Of a DNA stretch of 64,000 bases, positions 40,978 through 61,368 are shown one piece after another. Source of the DNA: Bradyrhizobium sp. G127 (GTDB lineage Bacteria; Pseudomonadota; Alphaproteobacteria; Rhizobiales; Xanthobacteraceae); assembly GCF_021502575.1 (NCBI RefSeq), contig NZ_JAKFGN010000003.1, positions 186,001 to 250,000 of the forward strand, in the 5' to 3' direction. The notes below the pieces were generated by a model. It saw only the letters and a list, made by a program, of their open reading frames with translations. It was not told the DNA's origin and did no database searches. A program made the translations under genes and the position numbers. Numbering within the stretch: the first letter of the stretch is position 1; the number at the start of each line of letters is the position of its first letter.

Positions 40978-41067
40978 TCGCCGCGCCGCCTCGCTTGTGT
41001 GCTGTTGGCTGGATCGAATAGTGTCGCGGAGCGCCCTGTAAGGCGTTCGATCCAGGAGTTGTCCCCG

Positions 41068-42363
41068 ATGGCGCAATCCACCAAAACCGATGCAGGAAAC
41101 GACATCTGGCTGGCGGCGGGCGTCCGCACGCCGTTTGCCAAGGTCGATGGCCCCTTGAGCGGCGTCGACGCTATCGCGCTGTCGGTGCCGGTGGTCAAGC
41201 ACATGATCGATCGCCTTGGCGGCGGCAAGCCGGACTTCGCGGTCTGGGGCAACGTCGTTCCCAACCTGACCTGGAGCAACATCGCCCGCGAAATTCTCAT
41301 GGATGCCGGCGTCGACGCCACGGTGCCGGCCACTTCCACCGTGATGGCCTGCTCGACCAGCATGATGGGCGTGTTCGAGGCCGCAGGCTTAATCGACGGC
41401 GAGGTGCGCAATCTCGCGCTGGTCGGCGGCGTCGACAGTCTCAGCCAGGTGCAGCTTGGCCTCGGCACATCGTTGTCGAACTGGGTGCGCCAGTTCCAGA
41501 CCGCCCGCTCGCTCGGCCAGAAGCTCAGCCACGCCATCGATCTCAAGCTCAGCGACGTGCGCCTCTACATTCCGGCGGTCAGCAACCGCACCACCGGCAT
41601 GAGCATGGGCGAGCATACCGAGATCACCGCCAAGGTCTGGAACATCTCGCGCGAGGCGCAGGACCAGATCGCGCTGGAAAGCCATCAGCGCGCGGTCGCG
41701 GCGTGGGATCGCGGCTTCTTCGACGATCTCGTGATTCCGTTCGGCGGGGTGAAGCGCGACACCATTCCGCGCAAGGATACATCGCTGGAGAAACTGGCGC
41801 GGCTGTCGCCGTCGTTCGACCGCACCAGCGGCAAGGGCACGCTGACCGCGGGCAACTCGTCGCCACTGACCGACGGCGCGTCGAGCATCTGGGTCGCTTC
41901 GACGGCGGGTCTCACAAGGCTGCCTGCGAGCACGCCCCGCGTGAAACTGGTGGACTGGGAAATGGCGTCGGTGGATTTCCGCACCGAAGGTCTCCTGATG
42001 GCGCCGCCTTACGCGATCCCGCGTCTGCTGAAGCGGCAGGGACTGACCTATGCGGACATCCATCTCTGGGAAATTCACGAAGCGTTCGCCGCTCAGGTGC
42101 TGGCGCATATCAAGGCGCTGGAAAGCCCCGAGTTCATCCGTGACAAGGCGGGCGTGACCGGAGAATTCGGCAAGTTTCCGCGCGAGCGCATGAATCCGAA
42201 CGGCGGCTCCACCGCGCTCGGGCATCCGTTCGGCGCGACCGGCGCGCGAATCCTCAGTCAGGCGGTCAAGGCGCTGGCCGCGATGCCGAAGGGCAGCCGC
42301 GCCATCGTCAGCATCTGCGCCGACGGCGGGCAGGGGACCGTGGCGCTGCTGGAAGCCGCGTAG
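41068..42363 (+). CDS. Acetyl-CoA acetyltransferase (thiolase, FadI/trifunctional-beta-like)
   Basis: This 431-residue thiolase has the nucleophilic Cys in STVMACSTSMMG (residue about 94), the His loop NPNGGSTALGHPFGATGAR and the C-terminal Cys in SICADGGQGTVAL. The ATG at 41068 is supported by AGGAG upstream. Length and MACSTS context resemble the beta chain of trifunctional enzymes more than the FadA-type thiolases elsewhere in this window. It is convergent with an enoyl-CoA hydratase-like gene, 4 bases apart. Confidence 0.9.
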   Translation: MAQSTKTDAGNDIWLAAGVRTPFAKVDGPLSGVDAIALSVPVVKHMIDRLGGGKPDFAVWGNVVPNLTWSNIAREILMDAGVDATVPATSTVMACSTSMMGVFEAAGLIDGEVRNLALVGGVDSLSQVQLGLGTSLSNWVRQFQTARSLGQKLSHAIDLKLSDVRLYIPAVSNRTTGMSMGEHTEITAKVWNISREAQDQIALESHQRAVAAWDRGFFDDLVIPFGGVKRDTIPRKDTSLEKLARLSPSFDRTSGKGTLTAGNSSPLTDGASSIWVASTAGLTRLPASTPRVKLVDWEMASVDFRTEGLLMAPPYAIPRLLKRQGLTYADIHLWEIHEAFAAQVLAHIKALESPEFIRDKAGVTGEFGKFPRERMNPNGGSTALGHPFGATGARILSQAVKALAAMPKGSRAIVSICADGGQGTVALLEAA

Positions 42364-42367
42364 CGTC

Positions 42368-43225
42368 TCAGCCGTTCCTGAACACCGGCTTGCGCTTTTC
42401 GACGAAGGCTTTCACCGCTTCCTTGTGATCGGCGGTTCCGGCGGTGCGCACCATTCGTTCGGCTTCGTGATCGAGCGAGGTGAGGAAATCGTTCATCAGC
42501 GCCTCGTCGAGATTGTCCTTCATTAGCCGCAAGGCTGTCGACGGACCTTCGGCAAGCGTCTTTGCCCAGGCGAAGGCTTCGTCGCGCAGCCGGTCGTCGG
42601 GCACCACGCGGTTGACAAGGCCAAGCGTCTCGCAGCGCTTCGCATCGATCTTCTCGCCGAAGAACATCAGCTCGCGCGCCCGCGACGTGCCGACGAGGCG
42701 CGTCAGCAGCCACGACATACCGTAGTCGCCGCTGAGACCAATTTTCACATAGGCCGTGGTGACGAAGGCGGACTCCGCCGCAATGCGCAGGTCGCAGGCC
42801 AGCGCCAGCGAAAGGCCCGCTCCCGCCGCTGGACCCGGCAGGGCCGCGATGGTCGGTTTGCGGACATTGACCAGAACGCCGGTCAGCGTGCGCTGGCGCT
42901 CCTGCAGACGCGCAACCTTCTGGTCGAATGTCAGTTCGGGTGCGTTGCTGCTGCCGGGTTTGCCGCCCATGCCCTTGACGTCACCACCGGCACAGAACGC
43001 CGCGCCCGCGCCTGTGATCAGCAGCGCGCCGACATTGGCGTCTTCGCCGCACAGCTTGATCATCCGGCGCAGCGCAGGCGTCAGATTGTCGGAGAGCGAA
43101 TTCCGCGCCTGCGGGCGGTTGAGCGTGATGACGGCGACGCGGTCGCGCACTTCGCAGAGCAGTTCGTCCGTGCCGGTGTCGATCACGGTGTTGGCGCTGA
43201 TGGGGACAGTGGCTGTGACGGTCAT
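42368..43225 (-). CDS. Enoyl-CoA hydratase/isomerase family protein
   Basis: This 285-residue crotonase-fold protein has the CoA-binding oxyanion loop FCAGGDVKGMGG and a GPAAGAGLSLALACDL helix. Where true hydratases have a P-G-x-G-G-T loop with a second Glu nearby, this one reads GLSGDYGMSWLLTRLVG, with Asp in place. That is seen in isomerases and other crotonases, so a plain hydratase role is not certain. About 20 N-terminal residues precede the fold. The gene converges on the FadI-like thiolase; it is the only stand-alone crotonase gene in the window besides the FadB fusion. Confidence 0.87.
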   Translation of the reverse strand: MTVTATVPISANTVIDTGTDELLCEVRDRVAVITLNRPQARNSLSDNLTPALRRMIKLCGEDANVGALLITGAGAAFCAGGDVKGMGGKPGSSNAPELTFDQKVARLQERQRTLTGVLVNVRKPTIAALPGPAAGAGLSLALACDLRIAAESAFVTTAYVKIGLSGDYGMSWLLTRLVGTSRARELMFFGEKIDAKRCETLGLVNRVVPDDRLRDEAFAWAKTLAEGPSTALRLMKDNLDEALMNDFLTSLDHEAERMVRTAGTADHKEAVKAFVEKRKPVFRNG

Positions 43226-48837: not shown

Positions 48838-49455
48838 ATGTCCCGCATTTTTCTGATTGCCGCATTCCTGGCCAGTCTTGCACTCGGCGCGCCTGCGTCC
48901 GCCATGCAACTCAGCCCCGAGCAGAACGAACTCTACACATCGGTATCGATCAATCCGCCATCGCCGAACGGAATGACGGTCTGCTACGGCTTCGTCTGTC
49001 GCCGCCGGGCGGAATTGACCTTTACCGCCGCGGATCAGAAGCAACTGTCGCAGCTCATGGCCGCCGGCAAGGCCTCGGCGATTGCCGAGCGTGCGGCGGT
49101 TCAGAAGGCGGTGGTCTGGTTCGACAAGCGGATGGGGCCGGTGATCGGCACGACAACGCGAGTTGCGCGGGCGGACATCCGCAATCGCGCCGATGCCAGC
49201 AACTATGATTGCTGGGACGCGACACGCAACGTGTCGAGCTTCCTGCTGGTGCTGCAGGAATGGGGCTTGCTGAAGCATCACACGGTGGGCAATCCGCGTT
49301 ATCGCGGCAACATTCTGGCCATGCAGTTGCCGCACAACACGGCGGTGCTCACGGAAAAGGCAAGCCGCGTGGACTGGGTCGTCGATATGTGGACCACGCG
49401 CTACGCGCAGCCGCCCGATGTCATGCTCGTGGAGCAGTGGCTGAAGGAGGAGTGA
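48838..49455 (+). CDS. Predicted exported transglutaminase-like protein
   Basis: The ATG at 48838 (an earlier TTG is open) gives 205 residues with a signal peptide to about residue 22. Cys49 and Cys54 (CYGFVC) might form a disulfide. The C-terminal half has NYDCWDATRN (Cys125), LPHNTAVL (His166) and DWVVDMW (Asp183), the order and spacing of the Cys-His-Asp triad in bacterial transglutaminase-like cysteine proteinases (DC-x-D, GHAVL, D-x-x-LDN in that family). I infer that fold; no family name is certain. It is divergent from putA and converges on an acyl-CoA ligase. Confidence 0.72.
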   Translation: MSRIFLIAAFLASLALGAPASAMQLSPEQNELYTSVSINPPSPNGMTVCYGFVCRRRAELTFTAADQKQLSQLMAAGKASAIAERAAVQKAVVWFDKRMGPVIGTTTRVARADIRNRADASNYDCWDATRNVSSFLLVLQEWGLLKHHTVGNPRYRGNILAMQLPHNTAVLTEKASRVDWVVDMWTTRYAQPPDVMLVEQWLKEE

Positions 49456-49465
49456 GCGTCGCCGC

Positions 49466-51019
49466 TCACGCCTGCGCCGGGGTCTTCTTCACCTTCGCCC
49501 AGTAGCGGTCGCGCAGATGCCGCTTCACCAGCTTGCCGGTGGGCGTGCGCGGCAGCTCCGCTTCAAAGTCGACGCTCTTCGGGCATTTGATCGGCGACAG
49601 GTGCTTGCGGCAAAACAGAACCAGTTCGGCTTCCAGTTCCTTGCCGGCGCGCGCCATGTCGTGCGGCTGCACCACGGCCTTGACCTCTTCGCCCATTTCC
49701 TCATTCGGCACGCCGAACACCGCGACATCCGCCACGGCGGGGTGGGTGATCAGCACGTCCTCGGTTTCCTGCGGGTAGATGTTCACGCCGCCGGAAATGA
49801 TCATGTAGGCCTTGCGGTCGGTGAGATAGAGAAAGCCCTCGCTGTCGAGATAACCGACGTCGCCCAGCGTCGACCAGCCCTGCGCGTTGTAGGCGCGCTT
49901 CGTCTTTTCATCATCGTTGTGATAGGCGAACTGCGGGCCGCCTGCGAAATACACCGTGCCGGTCTCGCCCACGGGCAGTTCGTTGCCGTCGTCGTCGAGG
50001 ATCTTGAGCGATCCTACCACGGCGCGGCCGACGGTGCCGCGATGCGCGAGCCAGTCCTTCGAGGTCGAGACCGTGACGCCGTTGCCTTCCGATCCGGCGT
50101 AGTACTCGATCAGAATCGGCCCCCACCAGTCGATCATCTTCGCCTTGACATCGGCAGGGCAGGGCGCCGCGGCATGCACCGCGCCCTTCAGCGAGGATAC
50201 GTCATATTTCTTGCGCACGTCGTCCGGCAGCTTGAGCATCCGCACGAACATGGTCGGCACGAGTTGCGATTGCGTCACCTTATGCTTCTCGACCAGCCGC
50301 AGGAATTCCTCGGCGTCGAAGTGTTCCATGATGATCGATGTGCCGCCAAGCGCCGCGCACATCATGTTGAAGCGCAGCGGAGCTGCATGATAGAGCGGCG
50401 CAGGCGAGAGATAGACGCTGTCCCCCGTCATGCCGCACATTGTCGAGCAAAGCAGTTTCAGCAGCGGATTGGGCACCAGGATCGACGGCTCCGTCAGCGG
50501 GCGTTTGATGCCTTTTGGCCTTCCCGTCGTGCCTGACGAATACAGCATGTCGTAACCGGCGGATTCGTCCGCGATCGGTGTCGCGGGCTGCGCGACGATG
50601 GCCTCGTCCCACGATTTGAATTGTCCCTGCGCGGGACCGGTGATGTAGAACACCGGCTCGCCCGGTGCGCCGGTGATCAATGGGGCGACAGCCTCCACGC
50701 ACTTCGGTGTCGTGATCACAACGCGCGCGCCACAATCCTTGACGATGTAGGCGATCTCGTCGGCGGTGAGGTAGCGGCTGATCGCCGTGTAGTAGAGTCC
50801 GCTGCGCTGCGCCGCCCAGCAGATTTCCAGGAAGACCGGCGTGTTCTCCATCAATAGCGCAATGTGGTCGCCTTTCTGCAGGCCAAGGGAGCGGAACAGT
50901 TGCGCACCCTGGTTGGAGCGGCGGTCGAGATCGCGATAGGTGACGGCTTCGCCGCTTCCCGCCATCTGATAGGCGATCTTGTCGGGCGTCGTCTGCGCGT
51001 GAATGGACGGATGAGACAT
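49466..51019 (-). CDS. Acyl-CoA ligase (AMP-forming)
   Basis: This 517-residue ATP-dependent ligase activates a carboxylic acid as its CoA thioester. The P-loop YSSGTTGRPKGIKRP and the adenylate motif STLGDVGYLDSEGFLYLTDR with the downstream GKLVKRHLR Lys are intact. Short length and the GIKRP form resemble FadD13/FadD3/FadD19-type ligases used for long or steroid-derived acids, though this is from memory. It is on the same strand as the FadA5-like thiolase, 137 bases after it, with a terminator between. Confidence 0.9.
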   Translation of the reverse strand: MSHPSIHAQTTPDKIAYQMAGSGEAVTYRDLDRRSNQGAQLFRSLGLQKGDHIALLMENTPVFLEICWAAQRSGLYYTAISRYLTADEIAYIVKDCGARVVITTPKCVEAVAPLITGAPGEPVFYITGPAQGQFKSWDEAIVAQPATPIADESAGYDMLYSSGTTGRPKGIKRPLTEPSILVPNPLLKLLCSTMCGMTGDSVYLSPAPLYHAAPLRFNMMCAALGGTSIIMEHFDAEEFLRLVEKHKVTQSQLVPTMFVRMLKLPDDVRKKYDVSSLKGAVHAAAPCPADVKAKMIDWWGPILIEYYAGSEGNGVTVSTSKDWLAHRGTVGRAVVGSLKILDDDGNELPVGETGTVYFAGGPQFAYHNDDEKTKRAYNAQGWSTLGDVGYLDSEGFLYLTDRKAYMIISGGVNIYPQETEDVLITHPAVADVAVFGVPNEEMGEEVKAVVQPHDMARAGKELEAELVLFCRKHLSPIKCPKSVDFEAELPRTPTGKLVKRHLRDRYWAKVKKTPAQA

Positions 51020-51114
51020 AAGGCTCCCTCGGCGTTTCCCGATGCATCGGCGGCTTTTGCCGCTCGTTGATTGGTTTTGAAGTGTCGATGTGACGGCCTG
51101 TGAACAGCCGTCAG

Positions 51115-51144
51115 AAAAAAAGGGCGGGTGTTGAACCCGCCCTT
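51115..51144 (-). terminator. Rho-independent terminator of the reverse-strand thiolase gene
   Basis: On the reverse strand, AAGGGCGGGT and ACCCGCCCTT form a 10-bp stem, followed by seven T. It lies 12 bases beyond the thiolase stop and separates it from the ligase gene. Confidence 0.9.
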
Positions 51145-51156
51145 CACAAGAGACCG

Positions 51157-52329
<1,173 letters not shown>

Positions 52330-52398
52330 GGTGGTGCTCCCTGTTTGATTGTTATGTGTTGCGGCCGATTAAAATGGCCCGGCGAGATTTAGTCAATC

Positions 52399-52456
52399 GC
52401 TCAATTAACTCTTGAGCCGGGAGCCATCATCGGCTTAGCTGTCTACTCCCTATAAT
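52399..52456. promoter_or_regulatory. TetR-type operator and -10 box between thiolase and tetR
   Basis: GCTCAA-N7-TTGAGC (52399-52417) is a perfect 19-bp dyad, 70 bases before the thiolase start and 49 before the first tetR ATG. TATAAT (52451-52456), an exact -10, would start tetR near 52463. The dyad would cover the -35 region, fitting autorepression. A GCTCAA half-site recurs at 53235-53240 before the racemase gene. Confidence 0.55.
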
Positions 52457-52543
52457 GAGAGATGCATGTCATCGCCCCTGACCCAAAAAGCGCCGCGGCC
52501 CTCCGCGCCGTCGAAGCAGGCTCCTGAAAAGGAGGCCGCGCCG

Positions 52544-53191
52544 ATGAATGCGACGGCTGCCAAGCTGCTGGTGGCCGCGGGCGATCTGATGATCGAGCGC
52601 AACACCACCGAGGTGTCGCTGAGCGAGATCGCGCAGAAGTCCGGCGTCAATGCGGCGCTGGTGAAATACCATTTCGGCAACAAGGATGGTCTGCTGCTGG
52701 CGCTGCTGGCGCGCGACGCCGCCGCGGAAATGGCGAACCTCGCCTTCGTGCTCGATATGCCGATCTCGCCGACGGAGAAGATGCGTCGGCACATCGCCGG
52801 CATCATCAACGCCTATTATCGCGTGCCGTATCTGAACCGGCTGATTCACCTGCTGCTGCATCAGGGCAGCGAGGCGACTTCGAAAGAAGTCCACCGCTTC
52901 TTCATCAATCCGCTGTTCGATTTTCTGCGCCGGCTGCTCGAAGAAGGCATCGCGGCGGGCGAGTTCCGCAAGGTCGATCCGGCGCTGTTCTACATCAGCC
53001 TCAACGGCGCGTGCGATCACCTGTTCTACGGTCGCCAGATGAATGCGCGTTTTATCGGATCGCGCGGCATCACCGACGAGGTGCGGCGTCAATATATCAG
53101 CCACATGACGAAGCTGATCCTGGGGGGATTGCTGACCGACAAGGCTGGCATGCCCTCCGATCTTCAGGAAAAGCCCGCCGGCAAAGCATGA
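52544..53191 (+). CDS. TetR family transcriptional regulator
   Basis: This 215-residue regulator has an N-terminal helix-turn-helix (EVSLSEIAQKSGVNAALVKYHFGNKDGLLLALL, about residues 20-60) and an all-helical ligand domain. The ATG at 52544 is preferred because AAAAGGAGG lies 8 bases upstream; ATG at 52466, which would sit only a few bases from the predicted transcript start, would add a 26-residue tail. It precedes the racemase gene by 133 bases and is divergent from a thiolase. Acyl-CoA or a related thioester is a plausible ligand. Confidence 0.9.
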   Translation: MNATAAKLLVAAGDLMIERNTTEVSLSEIAQKSGVNAALVKYHFGNKDGLLLALLARDAAAEMANLAFVLDMPISPTEKMRRHIAGIINAYYRVPYLNRLIHLLLHQGSEATSKEVHRFFINPLFDFLRRLLEEGIAAGEFRKVDPALFYISLNGACDHLFYGRQMNARFIGSRGITDEVRRQYISHMTKLILGGLLTDKAGMPSDLQEKPAGKA

Positions 53192-53324
53192 GACTGGCAT
53201 GATCGTGACGCCGAAAGGTTGTCCGGACGGGCATGCTCAATGAAACAAGCAGTGAGTTTGACATCAGCGAAGCTGAGCGGACTCGGAAACCAAAACAAAA
53301 AGACGTTGAGTTCGGGAGAGGCGT

Positions 53325-54449
53325 ATGAAGGAGCAATCGGCGGCAACGGGGCCACTGCGCGGCGTGCGCGTGATCGAATTTGCTGGCATCGGACCGGGGC
53401 CGTTCGCCTCGATGTTGCTGTCCGACATGGGCGCCGACGTGGTGTCGATCGCGCGGCCCGGGCAGGGCAAGCGCGATGTGCGGGATTTCGTCAATCGCGG
53501 ACGGCGGGTCATCGAGCTGGATCTGAAAAGCGCGGCCCATATCGAGCAGGCGCTGGATCTGATCGCCGCCGCTGACGTACTGATCGAGGGTTTCCGTCCG
53601 CAGGTGATGGAGCGTCTCGGCCTCGGGCCGGACGTGGTGCTCAAGCGCAATCCGCGTCTGGTCTATGGCCGAATGACGGGCTGGGGCCAGACCGGGCCGC
53701 TGTCGCAGGCAGCCGGTCACGACATCAATTATATCGCGATCACCGGCGCGCTGGACTCGTTCCGCTCCGGCAGCGGCGAGACCGTTTCGCCACTCAATCT
53801 GGTCGGCGACTATGGCGGCGGCGCGCTCTATCTCGTCGTCGGCGTGCTGGCTGCCGTGATCGAGGCGCGCGCCTCGGGCAAGGGGCAGGTTGTGGACGCC
53901 GCGATGTGTGACGGCGTCTCCAGCATGTTGACCATGTTCCACAGCCTGCGCGCCACGGGCCGCTGGACCGAACAGCCGCGCACCAACTTGCTCGACGGCG
54001 GCGCGCCGTTCTATCGCACCTACGAGTGCAAGGACGGCGGCTTCATGGCCATCGGCGCGCTGGAGCCGCAGTTCTATGCGGAGCTGCGCCAGCTCGCCGG
54101 TCTCGACGAGGAATGTTACGACGCGCAGATGAATCGCGCCGAGTGGCCGAAGGTGCAGGAAAAGATGGCCGCGCTGTTCAAGACCAAAACGCGCGACGAA
54201 TGGGCCAGGATTCTCGAAGGTTCCGATGCCTGTGCCGCGGCGGTCCTGGGATTGTTCGATGCGCCGAAGCATCCGCATCTTGCCGCGCGGCAGACCTTCG
54301 TCACCGCCGACGGCTATGTGCAGCCTGCGCCGGCGCCGCGCTTCTCGCGCACGCCATCCGCGATTCAGGGATCGCCTGCCGTCCCGCCGGTCGATGCCGC
54401 CGATATTCTTGCGCAGTGGTCGGAGACAACCGCCGCGCAGACCGTCTAG
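53325..54449 (+). CDS. Alpha-methylacyl-CoA racemase (family III CoA-transferase fold)
   Basis: This 374-residue enzyme of the CaiB/BaiF fold keeps the catalytic set of alpha-methylacyl-CoA racemase: His132 in AGHDINYI, Asp162 in GDYGGGALYL and Glu247 in GALEPQFYAEL. These residues sit a constant six positions later than in the Mycobacterium tuberculosis enzyme (His126, Asp156, Glu241), as I remember that structure. True CoA-transferases differ at these places. The racemase interconverts (R)- and (S)-2-methylacyl-CoA, needed before beta-oxidation of methyl-branched acids such as pristanic acid or steroid side chains. The ATG follows GGGAG. Confidence 0.88.
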   Translation: MKEQSAATGPLRGVRVIEFAGIGPGPFASMLLSDMGADVVSIARPGQGKRDVRDFVNRGRRVIELDLKSAAHIEQALDLIAAADVLIEGFRPQVMERLGLGPDVVLKRNPRLVYGRMTGWGQTGPLSQAAGHDINYIAITGALDSFRSGSGETVSPLNLVGDYGGGALYLVVGVLAAVIEARASGKGQVVDAAMCDGVSSMLTMFHSLRATGRWTEQPRTNLLDGGAPFYRTYECKDGGFMAIGALEPQFYAELRQLAGLDEECYDAQMNRAEWPKVQEKMAALFKTKTRDEWARILEGSDACAAAVLGLFDAPKHPHLAARQTFVTADGYVQPAPAPRFSRTPSAIQGSPAVPPVDAADILAQWSETTAAQTV

Positions 54450-54497
54450 AAAACGTCTCGTAGAAACCTTCAACGCAACTCAGGCAGGAAACAGATT

Positions 54498-55256
54498 ATG
54501 CAGCTCCAGGATATTTCGGTACTCGTGACGGGCGGCGGCTCGGGCCTCGGCGCAGCGACGGCGCGCGCCATGGCGGCGAAGGGCGCGAAGGTCGCCGTCA
54601 TCGACATGAACAAGGACGGCGCGGAAGCCGTCGCCAAGGAAATCAAGGGCCTCGCACTCACCGGCGACGTGTCGGAAGAAGCGCCGGTCAAGGAAGCCAT
54701 CGCGAAAGCCGAAGCGGCGCACGGCCCGATCCGCGTGCTGGTGAACTGCGCCGGCATCGGCGGCGCGGTGAAGACCGTGAGCAAGAACGGGGCCTATCCG
54801 CTCGATCACTTCTCGCGCATCATCAAGGTCAATCTGATCGGCTCGTTCAACTGCATTCGTCTGGTTGCCGAGCGCATGCAGTCCGCGCCGACCATCGGCG
54901 AGGAACGCGGCGTGTTCATCAACACCGCGAGCGTCGCGGCGTTCGACGGTCAGATCGGCCAGGCGGCGTATTCCGCGTCGAAGGGTGGCATCGTCGGCAT
55001 GACGCTGCCGGTGGCGCGCGATCTGGCCTCGCTCAACATCCGCGTCATGACCATCGCGCCCGGCCTGTTCCTGACGCCGTTGCTGATGGGCCTGTCGGAA
55101 GAGGCCCGCAAGAGCCTGGGCGCGCAGGTGCCGCATCCGGCGCGTCTCGGCGATCCCGGCGAATACGCCGCGCTCGCGGTGCATATCGTCGAGAACCCGA
55201 TGCTCAACGGCGAGACCATTCGTCTCGACGGCGCGATCCGTATGGCGCCGCGGTAA
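54498..55256 (+). CDS. 3-hydroxyacyl-CoA dehydrogenase, HSD17B10-type SDR
   Basis: This 252-residue short-chain dehydrogenase has the NAD loop TGGGSGLG at residues 11-18 and the catalytic Ser/Tyr/Lys set with YSASKGG. It ends in the specific tail [37 protein letters not shown], typical of type II 3-hydroxyacyl-CoA dehydrogenase (HSD17B10/FadB2-like). That enzyme oxidises 3-hydroxy- and 2-methyl-3-hydroxyacyl-CoA and some steroids. The ATG follows AGGAAACAG. It lies 48 bases after the racemase in the same transcript. Confidence 0.9.
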
Positions 55257-55265
55257 CACACGGTT

Positions 55266-55375
55266 GTCGCCCTTCGAGGCCGTCGCTGTGCGGCGGCGCC
55301 TCAGGGTGACGGGCACACGATATGCGTCATCCTGAGGTGCGAGCTGCGCTTGCGGCGAGCCTCGAAGGATGACGC
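55266..55375. repeat. Pair of inverted palindromic repeats
   Basis: Two RUP-like units stand back to back: 55266-55310 (GTCGCCCT ... AGGGTGAC arms) and 55324-55375 (GCGTCATCCT ... AGGATGACGC). The TCGA-containing side faces outward in opposite orientations. They lie between the SDR and ligase genes, so they are transcribed. Confidence 0.7.
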
Positions 55376-55440
55376 AAGCTCTGCCGGTGAGGGGCGCATC
55401 ACAAGAATGCCCCCGCCGCTCTCCCGGGAGGAAGTTTGCG

Positions 55441-57342
55441 ATGAGCGCGAGTTCTGGTTTCTGTCTGGCGGAGAAGAGCGCGGAGGCCGCGCTCTCGAAG
55501 CCGCCGTTCCGCAAGATCGAATGGCTTGCGCGCGACATCGCCGTCGAGCGCCGTCCCGACGGCGTGATCGTTCTCAAGTCGAAAATCCCGCTCGATCCAT
55601 TCGAGCCGCACATTCCGGCGTCACTGGCGAAGTGGGCGAAGCTGCGCCCCGATCACATCTGGCTGGCGCAGCGCAAGGGACCAGAACGGCAATGGCGCAA
55701 GTTATCCTATGGCGAGGCCAAGCGTACCGTCGACGCGCTGACGCAGGCGCTGCTCGACATGAAGCTGCCGGAAAGCAGGCCGCTCGCGATCCTCAGCGGC
55801 AACACCATCGAACATGCGCTGATAACGCAGGCCGCGATGCAGGCGCGAATTCCGGCCGCGCCCGTCTCACCTGCCTATTCGCTGATGAGCCAGGATCACG
55901 CCAAGCTGAAATACCTGTTCGACCTCATCAAGCCTGCCGTGGTGATGGTGCAGGACGGCGTTGTCTTCGAGAAGGCGCTGGCCGCGCTCGATCTGCGCGG
56001 CATCACGGTGGTCCACGTCGACCGCGCGCCCGCCAATGTCAAAAGCGTGTCTTACGCAGATCTCGCCGCGACTTCGGTGACGCCCGCAGTCGAAGCGTCG
56101 ATTGCGAAGATCACGCCGGATACCGTCGGCAAGTTCCTGTTCACCTCGGGTTCGACCGGCATGCCGAAGGCCGTCATCAATACCCATAAGATGATGTGCG
56201 CCAACGCCCGCATGATGATGCAGGTGCGGCCGCGCCCGCCGGGCGATTCCGAAGGCATCTATCTCGACTGGATGCCGTGGAATCACACCATGGGCGGCAA
56301 CGCGCTGTTCAATCCGGTGCTGACCGAAGGTGCCACGCTCTATATCGACGACGGCCGTCCGCTGCCAGGCATGATCGATGAGACGCTGCGCAACCTGCGC
56401 GAGATTTCTCCGACCTATTACGCCAACGTGCCCGCCGGCTATGCCGCGCTGGCGGCGGCGATGGAGAAGGACGACGCGCTGTGTCGCAACTTTTTCCGGA
56501 ACCTCGGTTTGATTGCTTATGGCGGCGCACGGCTGCCGGATGATCTGTACGAGCGCGTGCAGGCGCTGGCGATGCGAGCGACCGGCGAGCGCATTGTGTT
56601 CTACACCGGCTGGGGTTCGACCGAGACCGCGCCGACGTCCACCGGCACCTATTGGGACACCGAGCGCGTCGGGCTGATCGGCCTGCCGTTTCCGGGCGTC
56701 GAACTGAAAATGGTGCCTGCCGGACCGCAATACGAATTGCGCCTGCGTGGCGTCAACGTCACGCCGGGCTATTACGGCCAGCCCGAACTGACCCAGAAGG
56801 CGTTCGACGAGGAAGGCTTTTATTGCATCGGCGATGCCGGCGTGTTTGTCGATCCCGAGGATCCCGCGAAGGGTCTGATCTTCTCCGGCCGCGTGGTCGA
56901 GGACTTCAAGCTCACCACCGGCACGTTTGTGCTGGTCGGCTCGCTGCGCACCGATGCGATTGCGGCGGCGTCGCCGGTCGTTCAGGATGCGCTGGTCGCG
57001 GGCCAGGATCGTCCCTGCATCGGGCTTTTGGCGTGGCCGAATCTCGACGCCTGCCGCCGCCTGATTGGCGACATGGATGCGACTATGAAAACGGTCGTTA
57101 ATCATCCCAAGGTGCGCATGCATCTGCGCGATGGCCTGATGACCCACAACAAGGCCTGTGGCGGCGCGAGCAGCATGAGGATCGCGCGCGCCATGCTGAT
57201 GGCCGAGCCGCCATCCATCGACGGCAACGAACTCACCGACAAGGGTTACATCAACCAGCGCGCGGGTCTGGAGCGCCGCGCGGCGCTGGTCGAACAGCTT
57301 TATGCAGATCAACCGGGGCCGGATGTCATCGTCCTCTCATAG
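55441..57342 (+). CDS. Feruloyl-CoA synthase-like AMP-dependent ligase
   Basis: This 633-residue ligase is longer than ordinary FadD and matches the feruloyl-CoA synthase group in length and layout. The P-loop is FTSGSTGMPKAVINTH near residue 230, with the WMPWNHTMGGN and YTGWGSTETAPTSTGT segments, and the adenylate loop is EGFYCIGDAG. The ATG at 55441 follows GGGAGGAAG; an open stretch upstream comes from the repeat element. In this setting the substrate may be a different bulky acid than ferulate; the partner hydratase-lyase (vanillin forming) is absent. Confidence 0.85.
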   Translation: MSASSGFCLAEKSAEAALSKPPFRKIEWLARDIAVERRPDGVIVLKSKIPLDPFEPHIPASLAKWAKLRPDHIWLAQRKGPERQWRKLSYGEAKRTVDALTQALLDMKLPESRPLAILSGNTIEHALITQAAMQARIPAAPVSPAYSLMSQDHAKLKYLFDLIKPAVVMVQDGVVFEKALAALDLRGITVVHVDRAPANVKSVSYADLAATSVTPAVEASIAKITPDTVGKFLFTSGSTGMPKAVINTHKMMCANARMMMQVRPRPPGDSEGIYLDWMPWNHTMGGNALFNPVLTEGATLYIDDGRPLPGMIDETLRNLREISPTYYANVPAGYAALAAAMEKDDALCRNFFRNLGLIAYGGARLPDDLYERVQALAMRATGERIVFYTGWGSTETAPTSTGTYWDTERVGLIGLPFPGVELKMVPAGPQYELRLRGVNVTPGYYGQPELTQKAFDEEGFYCIGDAGVFVDPEDPAKGLIFSGRVVEDFKLTTGTFVLVGSLRTDAIAAASPVVQDALVAGQDRPCIGLLAWPNLDACRRLIGDMDATMKTVVNHPKVRMHLRDGLMTHNKACGGASSMRIARAMLMAEPPSIDGNELTDKGYINQRAGLERRAALVEQLYADQPGPDVIVLS

Positions 57343-57372
57343 TTTCCTCTTCACAATGCGAGTCCCAAACCC

Positions 57373-58500
57373 ATGAATTTCGAATTCTCCGACGACCAGA
57401 AGCAGTTGCGCGATCAGGCGCGGCGCTACCTCGCCGAACATTCCCCGTCGAAGGCGGTGCGCTCGGTGCTGGAAGGCAAGGCGCCCTATGACAAGGCGCT
57501 GTGGAAGGGCCTCGCCGAGATGGGCTTTCTCGGTGTGGCAATCCCGGAGGAATTCGGCGGCGCAGGTGCGGGCCATCTTGAACTGTGCGTGATTGCCGAG
57601 GAAATCGGCCGCGTGCTCGCGCCGGTGCCGTTTGCATCGACCATCTATCTTGCAACCGAAGCCATCATGCTCGCAGGCAGCGATGAGCAGAAGGCCAAGT
57701 GGCTGCCAAAGATCGCGTCGGGCGAAGCCATCGGCACGCTGGCGCTGTTCGAGGGCGCGGGCAATCCGTCACCCAAGGGGATCAACGTGTCGGTCTCACA
57801 GGGCGCTGTCTCCGGCACCAAGAAGCCGGTGCCGGATGGAGCCATTGCGGATTTCGCCATTGTCGTGGCGCGCACCGGCTCGACCGGCCGCGAGACCGAT
57901 ATTGGCTTGTTCATTGTCGATCTCAACGGCGCGGGCGTGACGCGCAAATCGCTGGCGAATATCGATCAGGCGCACGGTCAGGCCGAAATCACGTTCGATA
58001 AAGCCAAAGCCGAACCACTCGGCGCGGCCAACGAAGGCTGGAGCATCCTCACCCGCGTGCTCGACCGCGCCGCCGTTCTGATGGCGTTCGAGCAGGTCGG
58101 CGGCGCGGACCGCGCGCTGGAGATGGGGCGCGACTACGCGCTCGACCGCATCGCCTTCGGCCGTCAGATCGGATCGTTCCAGGCGGTGAAGCATCTGCTC
58201 GCCGACATGTATGTCTCGGCGACGCTGGCGCGCTCGAACTGCTATTATGGCGCGTGGGCGCTCTCCACCGACGCGGCCGAGTTGCCGGAAGCAGCAGCCG
58301 GCGCGCGCATCAGCGCGACCCAGGCGTTCCAGCATTGCGCCAAGAACAACAACCAGGTGCACGGCGGCATGGGCTTCACCTGGGAATTCGACTGCCACTT
58401 GTACTACCGGCGCGCGAACGCGCTCGCGCTGGCGCTCGGAAGCCTGTCGTACTGGGAAAACCAGTTGATCGACCGCATGCGCCTGCGCAACGCGGGGTGA
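57373..58500 (+). CDS. Acyl-CoA dehydrogenase, likely non-catalytic (beta/small) subunit
   Basis: This 375-residue acyl-CoA dehydrogenase resembles PimD-like small subunits. The N-terminal helical domain (MNFEFSDDQKQLRDQARR), the middle beta domain and the C-terminal helices (DYALDRIAFGRQIGSFQAVKH) are complete, but the C-terminal catalytic-Glu motif Y-E-G-T is not present: that place reads WEFDCHLYYRRANAL. In heterotetrameric dehydrogenases of steroid, pimelate or side-chain pathways, one subunit lacks this Glu. It is followed, after a repeat, by a second dehydrogenase gene. Confidence 0.88.
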   Translation: MNFEFSDDQKQLRDQARRYLAEHSPSKAVRSVLEGKAPYDKALWKGLAEMGFLGVAIPEEFGGAGAGHLELCVIAEEIGRVLAPVPFASTIYLATEAIMLAGSDEQKAKWLPKIASGEAIGTLALFEGAGNPSPKGINVSVSQGAVSGTKKPVPDGAIADFAIVVARTGSTGRETDIGLFIVDLNGAGVTRKSLANIDQAHGQAEITFDKAKAEPLGAANEGWSILTRVLDRAAVLMAFEQVGGADRALEMGRDYALDRIAFGRQIGSFQAVKHLLADMYVSATLARSNCYYGAWALSTDAAELPEAAAGARISATQAFQHCAKNNNQVHGGMGFTWEFDCHLYYRRANALALALGSLSYWENQLIDRMRLRNAG

Positions 58501-58510
58501 GATTTATGAC

Positions 58511-58603
58511 GTCATTCCGGGGCGCTCGTCTTCGAGCGAACCCGGAATCCAGTTGGGATGAGATTCCGGATCGATCCGCGAAGTGCGGATCGTCCGGAAT
58601 GAC
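58511..58603. repeat. 93-bp nested palindrome between the two dehydrogenase genes
   Basis: GTCATTCCGG at the left end pairs with CCGGAATGAC at the right end. Inside are CGCTCG/CGAGCG and CGGATCGATCCG-type hairpins. It differs from the repeat pairs at 55, 60 and 63 kb. It sits within an apparent operon, so it is transcribed and could affect mRNA stability or expression balance. Confidence 0.75.
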
Positions 58604-58624
58604 GAAAAATGAAGGATCGCTCTC

Positions 58625-59869
58625 ATGAATTTCGATGACACCCCGCAGGAAGCTGCATTTCGCGCCGAAGCCCGTGCCTGGATTCAGGCCAACGCGCCGC
58701 GACATCTTGAGCCCGAATTGTCCGAGCCGTCGGTCGGACGCATCAAGCTGCGAAGCGGCGACATCCTGACCGAATCGAAGAAGTGGCAGAAGAAGAAGGC
58801 CGAGGCCGGCTGGGCCTGCCTGCACTGGCCGAAGGAATATGGCGGTCGCGGCGCATCGCCGATCGAGCGCGTGATCTGGCAGCAGGAGGAAGGCGTCTTC
58901 ATCAAGCTGGAAAGCGTGTTCCTGATCGGGCAGGGCATGTGCGGCCCGACCATGATGGCCTATGCCGGCGAGGACGATAAAAAGAAGTATCTGCCGAAGC
59001 TCGCTTCCGGGGAAAACATCTGGTGCCAGTTGTTCTCCGAACCTGCGGCGGGTTCCGACGTCGCGGGTCTGCGCACCCGCGCCGAGAGGAAGGGCGACGA
59101 CTGGATCATCAACGGCCAGAAGGTCTGGACCACCGGCGCGCATTTCTCGGATTACGGCATCGTCATCACACGCACCGATCCGGCCCAGCCCAAGCACAAG
59201 GGCCTGACCATGTTCTTCCTGGACATGAAAAGTCCGGGCGTGGTGGTGAAGCCGATCAAGCAGGCCAACGGCCAGGCCGAGTTCAACGAGGTGTACTTCA
59301 CCGACGTGAAAATTCCGGACTCGCAGCGGCTCGGCAAGGTGAACGACGGCTGGAATGTCTCGCTCACCACGCTGATGAACGAGCGCATGTCGATCGGCGC
59401 GCGTATCGTGACCGGCGTGCCGGAGATGTTCGACTTTTGCAGCAAGCTGATGCTGGAGGATGGTCTGGCCATCGATGACAAGAACGTCCGCTCCAAGCTC
59501 GCAAGCTGGGCGGTGAAGGCCAGCGGCCTGAAATACACCAGCTACCGCTCGATCTCGGCGCTGTCGCGCGGCGAGCGTCCGGGACCGGAGAACTCCATCG
59601 GCAAGCTGGTGTCCGGTTCGATGCTTCAGGACATCGCGATGTTCGCGCTCGATCTTCAGGGCGCGGCGGGCGTGCTCAACGATGCGGATGCCGTCGCGGG
59701 AGCCGGACAGTTCCAGTCGATGCTGCTGCGCTCTCCCGCAACGCGCGTCGAGGGCGGCACCGACGAAATCCTGCGCAACATCATCGCCGAGCGCGTGTTG
59801 GGATTGCCGGGTGATATTCGTGTCGACAAGGATGTGCCGTTTAATGCCATTCCGACCAAGGGGCGCTAG
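58625..59869 (+). CDS. Acyl-CoA dehydrogenase, catalytic (large) subunit
   Basis: This 414-residue dehydrogenase carries the full set of acyl-CoA dehydrogenase motifs: FSEPAAGSDVAGLRTRAER for acyl-CoA, GRM-like FAD helices, and the catalytic Glu376 in RVEGGTDEILRNIIAERVLG. It resembles PimC-type large subunits (MNFDDTPQEAAFRAEARAW start). With the preceding gene it likely forms an alpha2-beta2 enzyme that oxidises a branched or bulky acyl-CoA to the enoyl-CoA, passing electrons to ETF. The ATG follows GAAGGA just after the repeat. Confidence 0.92.
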   Translation: MNFDDTPQEAAFRAEARAWIQANAPRHLEPELSEPSVGRIKLRSGDILTESKKWQKKKAEAGWACLHWPKEYGGRGASPIERVIWQQEEGVFIKLESVFLIGQGMCGPTMMAYAGEDDKKKYLPKLASGENIWCQLFSEPAAGSDVAGLRTRAERKGDDWIINGQKVWTTGAHFSDYGIVITRTDPAQPKHKGLTMFFLDMKSPGVVVKPIKQANGQAEFNEVYFTDVKIPDSQRLGKVNDGWNVSLTTLMNERMSIGARIVTGVPEMFDFCSKLMLEDGLAIDDKNVRSKLASWAVKASGLKYTSYRSISALSRGERPGPENSIGKLVSGSMLQDIAMFALDLQGAAGVLNDADAVAGAGQFQSMLLRSPATRVEGGTDEILRNIIAERVLGLPGDIRVDKDVPFNAIPTKGR

Positions 59870-59872
59870 ATA

Positions 59873-60562
59873 ATGTCTGCAACAAACGACAGTCGCGACA
59901 TCGAGGTTGTGGAGAAGCTATTGGGCGCGCGCTATTCCTGCCGCGCGTTCAAGCCTGAACCCGTCGCCCGTCCGGTCATCGAGCGGGTGTTGAGCGCCGC
60001 GCAGAAAACCGCGTCCTGGTGCAACAGCCAGCCGTGGCAGGTCATCATCGTCAGCGGCGATGCGACGCGCGCCTTTGGTGATGCGTTGTACAAGAACGCG
60101 AGCGAGGGCAAACACGCTTCGGATTTTCCGTTTCCGCGCGAATACACGGGCGTCTATCTCGATCGCCGCCGCGAGAGCGGTTTCCAGCTTTACAACGCAC
60201 TCGGCATCCCGCGCGGCGACAAGGCGGGTTATCAAAAGCAGATGCTGGAAAACTACCGCTTCTTCGGCGCGCCCCATGTGGCGATCATCACCACCGCCGA
60301 AGCGCTCGGCGTTTATGGCGCGGTGGACTGCGGTGGCTATGTCGGCAATTTCATGCTGGCGGCGCAGGCGCTTGGCATTGCGACCGTTCCGCAGGCGGCG
60401 CTGGCGGGGCAATCCGATGTGGTGCGCAAGCATCTCGGTCTTGCCGACGATCGTCGCGTGGTCTGCGGCATTTCGTTCGGATACGCGGACGAGGCGCATC
60501 TCGCCAACAGCTATCGCACCAACCGCGCGACGATCCCCGAGACGGTGACGTTTATCGGATAG
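59873..60562 (+). CDS. Nitroreductase family flavoprotein
   Basis: This 229-residue FMN protein has the N-terminal motif ARYSCRAFKPEPV, the SWCNSQPW segment that binds FMN, and the C-terminal GISFGYADEAHLANSYR strand. Relatives reduce nitroaromatics, quinones or enones, or act in special cofactor and thiazole chemistry. Position 3 bases after the dehydrogenase indicates co-transcription; it might reduce an unsaturated bond or a ring ketone in the substrate, which is a guess. The best named match in memory is NfnB/RutE-like nitroreductase. Confidence 0.85.
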   Translation: MSATNDSRDIEVVEKLLGARYSCRAFKPEPVARPVIERVLSAAQKTASWCNSQPWQVIIVSGDATRAFGDALYKNASEGKHASDFPFPREYTGVYLDRRRESGFQLYNALGIPRGDKAGYQKQMLENYRFFGAPHVAIITTAEALGVYGAVDCGGYVGNFMLAAQALGIATVPQAALAGQSDVVRKHLGLADDRRVVCGISFGYADEAHLANSYRTNRATIPETVTFIG

Positions 60563-60969
60563 CATGTGATGGATAAGGACGAAGGCGTTTAGGAACGCGC
60601 TTGCCTGTATCTCATTCGCCGCAGTCCTCATCCTGAGGAGCGCGCTCTTGCGCGCGTCTCGAAGGATGAGATGAGGTGAAGAAATCGAGCATGCGCCTCA
60701 TGGTTCGAGACGGCGCTGAAGAAGCGCCTCCTCACCATGAGGCTTCAGCTAGCCTCGGTGGCGTGGGATCACGCCTGATTTGGATCGCGAATCACGCAGC
60801 GAATCGCGGATGGAACCGGCGTTGTCATTTCTCTACATAATGTGAACGCGCGGGCGAAGCCCGGCGCGTGGTTAACTCTGCGTTAGGAAATTGCATTGCA
60901 TCCTTCCCATCAAGCGCGATCGGCAAAGGTGAATTCAGTTTTGACGGATCGTGCTTCGGGAGATTTGCA
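60563..60969. other. Gene-free region with repeats and a weak hairpin
   Basis: This 407-base gap holds no supported gene. It contains a repeat pair (60626-60743), a GC-rich imperfect hairpin around 60846-60867, and a TACATAATG stretch that might be part of a promoter for the downstream gene. Nothing else stands out. Confidence 0.5.
60626..60743. repeat. Pair of inverted palindromic repeats
   Basis: Unit one (60626-60670) has CTCATCCT/AGGATGAG arms and unit two (60695-60743) has GCCTCATGG/CCATGAGGC arms. They run in opposite directions, each with a TCGA-bearing side. The stem bases CC/GG in one are GG/CC in the other. Confidence 0.75.
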
Positions 60970-61368
60970 ATGTGGTCCAGCCGCGAAGCCTTTGAGAACG
61001 ACGTTTGCCCGGTGGGCGACGAGATGCTCGGAAGCCTGTATCGCGCCAGCGAACATGGCCTTCCCCAACTGGTTGAATCGGTGTCATCCGACGTCAGAGC
61101 GATGTTGGCGCTGTTCTGCTACAAGCGCGCCCATCTGCACTCGATGAGTCTGGCGATCGCCGCCACCTGCACGGAGCGCGATCTGGTGGAACAGGGCGGT
61201 ATCGTCGGATCCACCTTGTTCGCGATGTCTCGGCAGGCGCCGTCATCGATGCCTGCGGCGTCGTCCTATGGCAGCCGCCGCAACATCACGCTGTCGACCA
61301 AGCCGCTCAGCACGTTCGCTCCCGTGGCGGACGAACTGGACGACGACTTCGCGGCCATGCCGGCATGA
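60970..61368 (+). CDS. Hypothetical protein
   Basis: The ATG at 60970 follows GGGAG and gives 132 residues; a longer open frame upstream lacks a signal. It has no membrane helix and one hydrophobic middle region (about 45-75) with Cys residues (LFCYKRAHLHSMSLAIAATCTE). A Ser/Pro-rich C-terminal third ends in an acidic stretch (ELDDDF). I do not recognise the family; it appears to be a conserved unknown of Nitrobacteraceae. Codon use is like its neighbours. Confidence 0.65.
   Translation: MWSSREAFENDVCPVGDEMLGSLYRASEHGLPQLVESVSSDVRAMLALFCYKRAHLHSMSLAIAATCTERDLVEQGGIVGSTLFAMSRQAPSSMPAASSYGSRRNITLSTKPLSTFAPVADELDDDFAAMPA

Follow-up and report, generated by a model that had tools for sequence, protein, structure and literature searches.

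A predicted TetR regulon for the beta-oxidation of 2-methyl-branched acids in Bradyrhizobium sp. G127 and its relatives

We analyzed a 64,000-nucleotide stretch of the 4.76 Mb genome of Bradyrhizobium sp. G127 (positions 186,001 to 250,000 of contig NZ_JAKFGN010000003.1; hereafter the window, with coordinates counted from its first base) and focused on a divergent nine-gene cluster at 49466..60562. We consider it reasonably probable that this cluster is the main locus of a TetR regulon for the beta-oxidation of 2-methyl-branched acids, probably ones that are isoprenoid-like or bear a bulky group. As an initial annotation of the window had described, all nine genes are open reading frames of the expected families: an acyl-CoA ligase and a thiolase are divergent from a TetR regulator, a racemase, a short-chain dehydrogenase/reductase (SDR), a second, Fcs-like ligase, two acyl-CoA dehydrogenases (ACADs) and a nitroreductase. 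The forward genes are separated by 3-133 bases with the called start of the Fcs-like ligase, or by up to 184 with the start that we prefer. The evidence, all of it read from sequence, consists of enzyme families, catalytic residues, gene order, the conservation of a motif, a second site for that motif, and the co-occurrence of the racemase with the cluster.

The racemase gene (mcr; 53325..54449, plus strand) encodes a true racemase of the MCR/AMACR type, with epimerisation of 2-methylacyl-CoA as its predicted activity. Among solved structures it is closest to MCR and AMACR (E ~1e-119, phmmer to MCR chains). By alignment and a position check, H132, D162 and E247 correspond to the catalytic His126, Asp156 and Glu241 of MCR, mutants of which are described in PMC10967716. 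A family III CoA-transferase, for which the best match is ~1e-30, is ruled out by this difference and by the MCR-type catalytic residues, and the earlier call of an alpha-methylacyl-CoA racemase is therefore upheld. The CoA-transferase family III/racemase family has 17 matches in the source genome. The adjacent SDR (54498..55256, plus strand) is of the Rv1144/HSD10 3-hydroxyacyl-CoA dehydrogenase type: in a PDB search its nearest solved relatives are Rv1144 (9e-90) and type II 3-hydroxyacyl-CoA dehydrogenases (~1e-80) and not FabG (~1e-32), in agreement with the HSD17B10-type assignment made previously. Its best NCBIfam model, however, is a FabG-like subfamily (172.8 bits, cut-off 298), which counts against the HSD10-type label. 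MCR is Rv1143, so the racemase-SDR pair resembles Rv1143-Rv1144 of Mycobacterium tuberculosis, which from their consecutive tags are presumably adjacent.

The two ACADs are adjacent and unequal in size. In the PDB the small one (acadS; 57373..58500, plus strand) is nearest to Tcur3481 (1.3e-40; next 1e-36) and the large one (acadL; 58625..59869, plus strand) to Tcur3483 (~1e-49) and 4x28 chain A (5e-46; next 4e-36); the best NCBIfam model of the small ACAD is IpdE2, at 183.2 bits below the cut-off of 450. The helix-G Glu253 of the large ACAD is present in 164/164 aligned copies, and the GGTDEI motif in the large protein and the FG..I..FQ motif in the small one are kept, features that presumably have roles in such subunits. 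With complementary motifs and known heterotetramers as nearest relatives, the two look like the subunits of an alpha2beta2 enzyme. A comparable pair, the pimeloyl-CoA dehydrogenase PimC/PimD of the related genus Rhodopseudomonas, also has large and small ACAD subunits. Dicarboxylate (pimelate-like) degradation by an enzyme of this type is nevertheless most improbable: among NCBIfam models pimC_large fits the large ACAD best, but the scores of 230.1 against 623.85 bits (TIGR03204) and 161.2 against 652.7 bits (TIGR03203) fall far below both equivalog cut-offs, and such a pathway needs neither the racemase nor the HSD10-type SDR. The PimC and PimD labels were therefore dropped.

Alpha2beta2 ACADs of steroid side chains are described in PMC6678751 and PMC12502768, and a rival reading is that the cluster degrades the side chain of a sterol, hopanoid or other polycyclic compound, in the manner of the C26 round of cholesterol breakdown in mycobacteria. 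That system (FadD19, MCR, ChsE4-ChsE5, EchA19, FadA5) likewise comprises a ligase, racemase, paired ACAD, hydratase, SDR and thiolase; both ACADs of the cluster have steroid side-chain enzymes as nearest solved relatives, the racemase is nearest MCR and the SDR nearest Rv1144, and the hydratase present in relatives of the cluster has EchA19 as its second-best family. However, a PDB ranking mirrors which families were crystallised, and curated models place the enzymes elsewhere. The thiolase (51157..52329, minus strand; C89 and C376 in their motifs) scores 370.8 bits against the cut-off of 515 for the NCBIfam steroid 3-ketoacyl-CoA thiolase and passes PRK06504 instead (771.4 against 590), so the FadA5-like label proposed earlier does not stand, and the relatives' hydratase fails EchA19 (188.4 against 400). 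The cluster also differs in its Fcs-like ligase, its nitroreductase, and its own TetR and motif. Finally, the one ring marker tested, KshA_C (PF19298), has zero matches in the source genome, although none of 14 control genomes passed its cut-off either; as KshA_C was not found, a sterol becomes less likely, and overall we regard this alternative as rather unlikely.

Comparative genomics shows that the cluster is conserved across Bradyrhizobium, Tardiphaga, Rhodopseudomonas and Afipia. Orthologs of the Fcs-like ligase at least 78% identical occur in 16 of the 61 genomes searched (the window's own included), and in a comparison of gene order across relatives, a check that the initial annotation had suggested, the order of shared genes is kept in all 14 of the relatives' loci that were fetched and cover the whole cluster. 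One of these, L068, has no racemase, and a fifteenth locus, L063, was not counted as it reaches a contig end. This agreement argues that the order is not due to chance. Using the large ACAD as query against named genomes, we found at least 166 coding relatives, of which 80 were retained; among the matches listed Bradyrhizobium predominates, alongside Tardiphaga, Rhodopseudomonas, Afipia and Parvibaculum. In total, 98 loci were examined, five of them (L209-L213) fetched because of a close mcr, after exclusion of one short contig and two repeats (L083, L084, L087), and 70 of the 98 span the thiolase, ACAD and nitroreductase. The remaining 28 comprise 19 that are short or cut by a contig end or the fetched stretch and nine that are full-length with members absent: the nitroreductase in L116 and L139, the thiolase in L120, and most of the cluster in L103, L105, L152 and L160-L162. 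Throughout the 70 spanning loci tetR, sdr and acadS are present; the FadD4-like ligase (fadD4) is found in 66, the Fcs-like ligase (fcs) in 64, a hydratase in 54, two large ACADs in 51 and mcr in 18. A tree built from the thiolase, small ACAD and SDR requires a minimum of one change for mcr, four for the second ACAD, eight for the hydratase and four for fcs. The duplication of the large ACAD predates the losses according to the tree, and the window retains the downstream paralog, acadL2. One large ACAD is found in 17/18 loci with mcr and two in 50/52 loci without it; we considered the racemase as a replacement for the second large subunit, but since mcr is a single split on the tree, this pattern is not independent evidence.

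We next considered the racemase in genomes whose cluster does not contain it. All 24 genomes searched (drawn from the 26 named by loci without mcr) carry mcr outside the locus, with a best match of 60-65% identity. Across 119 genomes of the family, 41 match mcr at E<=1e-110 with bimodal identity, at least 59% in 32 genomes and at most 55% in nine; taking this gap, seen before the cut was chosen, as the limit for a close mcr, we find one in 29/29 genomes with the large ACAD and in 3/90 without it. Fisher's p of 1e-24 for this co-occurrence takes no account of ancestry, and we do not treat it as a probability. In the window's genus, 20 of 29 genomes have the ACAD and 19 of these carry mcr at least 76% identical, the exception being G025, whose cluster lies at a contig end; none of the nine genomes without the ACAD has such an mcr. 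As the two genes are linked within the genus, its genomes were counted as one block. An insertion of mcr restricted to Afipia was also considered and dropped, as the gene lies within the cluster in five genomes outside the genus (G162, G144, G125, G096 and G094, all fetched because of a close mcr). These results bear on a rival reading in which a TetR governs ordinary fatty-acid beta-oxidation and the racemase is a neighbor by chance. The variability of mcr among spanning loci and its single change on the tree fit such an account, but the presence of a close racemase in every one of the 24 genomes with mcr-less loci and the 29 family genomes with acadL does not, nor do the heterodimeric ACAD type and the HSD10-type SDR, and we judge it decidedly unlikely. 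Conversely, the racemase elsewhere in 24/24 genomes and the co-occurrence across the family strengthen the 2-methyl-branched reading.

The regulator (52466..53191, plus strand; Pfam TetR_N and TetR_C_9) is the single tetR of the cluster. Between it and the thiolase gene lies TTTAGTCAATCGCTCAATTAA (52388..52408), which from its conservation is probably the TetR operator. The 21-base motif TTTAGTCAATCNNTCAATTAA is exact in 63 of 71 intergenic regions from relatives, a set that counts one genome twice (L069, L084); seven others differ by one or two bases, and L129 is without the motif. A CTCTTG just 3' of the motif is conserved too, the other flanking sequence much less so. The 20-base core has one match in the window at up to three mismatches, where 0.04 are expected. 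Searching 16 genomes with a looser 20-base pattern at up to two mismatches recovers the cluster site in 16/16, a second recurrent site in 14/16 and two strays, and in a further 26 genomes a zero-mismatch site is found in all 17 with the TetR locus. Among congeners without the cluster ACAD, 0/9 have a site at up to one mismatch and 4/9 have strays at two mismatches. The earlier claim of one TetR over the set is supported. It calls for caution at the FadD4-like ligase (49466..51019, minus strand; Pfam AMP-binding; 636.6 bits against the NCBIfam FadD4 cut-off of 850): a terminator-like stem in the gap between the thiolase and this gene (51145-51119, minus strand; the scan gave 11 in total against 9.9 by chance) leaves their co-transcription in doubt.

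The second site, usually beside a gene set not linked to the cluster, occurs at up to one mismatch in 26 of 38 genomes bearing the TetR. In 13/13 loci examined outside the genus it sits in a divergent promoter region, where a hydratase and a ligase point one way and a dienoyl-CoA reductase-like SDR points the opposite way; a second ligase follows in 11/13, 11/13 have an ACAD and a further hydratase close by, and a gene of the APH family is present in 10/13. Family names for this set come from the one locus L253, where the hydratase scores above the PRK07509 cut-off and the ligase above that of PRK12406. Within the genus the site precedes the hydratase in 5/5 loci examined. In L206 and L207 it stands between the ACAD and hydratase of the second-site set. 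In L248, L249 and L205, the last from the window's genome, it is flanked by an AraC-type gene and the hydratase, and the fetched stretch contains no close ACAD. The site in the window's genome (C2:1107414) is followed after ~78 bases by the start of the hydratase. In genome G144 one site precedes an APH gene and an ACAD (L295), and a site with one mismatch (L296) has two ligases only, ~3-6 kb off. The motif is thus accompanied by varying subsets of a single gene set, which suggests a regulon.

A tentative extension is that Nitrobacteraceae have a two-locus TetR regulon for acyl-CoAs that block ordinary beta-oxidation, with an operator that stays while the gene subset changes. Here the racemase, and perhaps the second ACAD large subunit, would handle alpha-methyl epimers, the dienoyl-CoA reductase-like SDR would handle 4-ene chains, and the APH protein and ACAD beside the second locus might handle 4-hydroxy chains, if they are ACAD11-like. 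An APH-family gene near the second motif of the source genome (L205:10672-11757, on C2) is similar to the kinase portion of ACAD11 (E 1e-12). Proximity of such a gene to the regulon hints at 4-hydroxyacyl handling, but at this E value the link between APH and ACAD11 is weak, and the ACAD beside the APH gene has closer relatives among other ACADs than ACAD11.

The second site also bears on the hydratase. The initial annotation had noted that the cluster lacks a dedicated enoyl-CoA hydratase and that one must be shared or unrecognised. The gap is real, although most relatives carry a hydratase of ~269 amino acids between the SDR and fcs: the window's lineage has lost the gene from the cluster. 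The window and six relatives' loci have 68-187 bases at this position, which in the window is 55257..55440. By eye, this gap holds short repeat-like sequence in the window and in several other loci without the hydratase, of at least two kinds that differ between relatives. Similar sequence follows the nitroreductase (60563-60870, by eye), and an inverted-repeat search reported an inverted repeat only there. An ortholog of the relatives' cluster hydratase was not found elsewhere in the source genome, where the single match at E<=1e-40 is a crotonase in the window that is 39% identical (42368..43225, minus strand). At that identity, and with the window's sole motif match elsewhere, we did not adopt it as the missing hydratase and keep it as a weak candidate. 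Next to it, on the plus strand, is a thiolase whose top NCBIfam models, PRK09268 and FadI, both score below their cut-offs; the two genes (40999-43225) make up another small beta-oxidation pair ~6 kb from the cluster. A likely answer to the missing-hydratase question is the hydratase at the second motif: the gene was lost from the cluster here, and another hydratase, elsewhere in the genome, has the same motif. The second site did not arise to replace the lost gene, since congeners that retain the cluster hydratase have the same site, and we dropped compensation as an explanation for it.

Based on this data, we propose the following scheme, in which TetR binding, the order of reactions, flux, the inducer and the substrate are inferred, as is any part played by the nitroreductase or the Fcs-like ligase. 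One of the two ligases, FadD4-like or Fcs-like, would form the CoA ester; the racemase would equilibrate its 2R and 2S epimers; the paired ACAD would yield the 2-enoyl-CoA; a hydratase, in the window's lineage encoded elsewhere with one candidate at the second motif, would add water; the HSD10-type SDR would oxidise the 2-methyl-3-hydroxyacyl-CoA; and the thiolase would release propionyl-CoA and a shortened acyl-CoA. TetR may repress both loci until bound by an acyl-CoA intermediate. Of the methyl-branched, terpenoid or sterol-side-chain acids suggested by the initial annotation, a 2-methyl-branched acid is the best single reading and a sterol is disfavored, and we infer that an isoprenoid is a plausible form of the former. 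An isoprenoid-like acid is attractive because the route proposed for actinobacterial degradation of rubber oligomers in PMC8538451 has a racemase and a dienoyl-CoA reductase, along with an ACAD, hydratase and thiolase; that paper also cites, from Arenskotter 2008, mcr mutants that lost the use of methyl-branched isoprenoids. There, the dienoyl-CoA reductase is of the Old Yellow Enzyme type, whereas here it is an SDR, found at the relatives' second site and not at that of the window's genome, and phylum and regulator differ. The argument is limited in that the second site of the window's genome marks the hydratase only.

The Fcs-like ligase (55441..57342, plus strand; called start 55369) passes NF009232 (PRK12582) at 1037.7 against 777 bits; as this is a subfamily model, it does not settle the substrate. 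Its start is probably 55441, since M25 is the first invariant column in nine orthologs and GGGAGGA lies just upstream. A ligase of this kind could instead begin the degradation of an aromatic side chain, of a phenylpropanoid or 2-arylpropionate. A variant locus (L048, genome G035) pairs homologs of tetR (62%), the nitroreductase (70%) and the SDR (63%) with an Fcs-like ligase, a hydratase and, by eye, PobA-like and transport-like genes, with no paired ACAD recognised, an arrangement that suits this idea. Feruloyl-CoA synthase clusters, however, share with the cluster one PRK12582 ligase, and here that ligase is dispensable (absent from 6/70 spanning loci that retain the rest), a racemase and paired ACAD are present and no hydratase-lyase is recognised. 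No aromatic-ring gene was found among the window genes scanned, and the relatives' cluster hydratase passes none of the models listed (the best 25 of 73). We therefore think aromatic side-chain degradation unlikely. A second catabolic region of the source genome (C2:1404001-1444000; L070, L071) encodes an Fcs-like ligase 56% identical to that of the cluster and a racemase homolog 57% identical with one internal stop, with hydratase-, ACAD- and Liv-transport-like neighbors by eye. The last gene of the cluster encodes a nitroreductase-family flavoprotein (59873..60562, plus strand; Pfam Nitroreductase) that is NfnB-like (best PDB match, 8.6e-38).

Several observations weigh against the 2-methyl-branched regulon as we propose it. 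The Fcs-like ligase points to aromatic acids and the nitroreductase has no role in the scheme; the branched-acid interpretation of the initial annotation left both unexplained, and ours does not fully explain them. The racemase gene is inside the cluster in only 18 of the 70 spanning loci, some of which were fetched for a close mcr, and as its presence is one change on the tree, the co-occurrence may reflect shared ancestry. There are also genomes with mcr and no complete cluster: G094 has the thiolase, motif, tetR, mcr, sdr and nitroreductase without the ACADs, G035 has mcr without acadL and a variant TetR locus with the motif, and in G164, whose genome is 72% complete and has its mcr on a contig of 6.8 kb, the cluster was not seen. 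On the regulatory side, 12 of the 38 genomes with the TetR have no second site, a one-mismatch site in G162 (L297) has no recognised gene alongside, and a reversed-pattern control at up to two mismatches gave 10 matches in 16 genomes and 8 in 26. The dienoyl-CoA reductase-like SDR of L253 does not pass PRK07677 (239 against 318), and a sigma-70 scan of 49000-61000 returned zero promoter-like sites.

The enzymes of the cluster are of known kinds, and the regulon, the motif and the traffic of genes look new: among the titles listed by our searches, which were confined to the open library, none describes the cluster, its motif or its two-site control. One feature of this traffic is that a hydratase can leave the cluster while another hydratase elsewhere bears the motif of the same regulator. 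Bradyrhizobium and related bacteria are common in soil and on roots, and to our knowledge much of the diet of this group is not known. A conserved regulon with a readable operator would offer a cheap route to the inducer, and hence to the branched plant or lipid acids that these bacteria may use.

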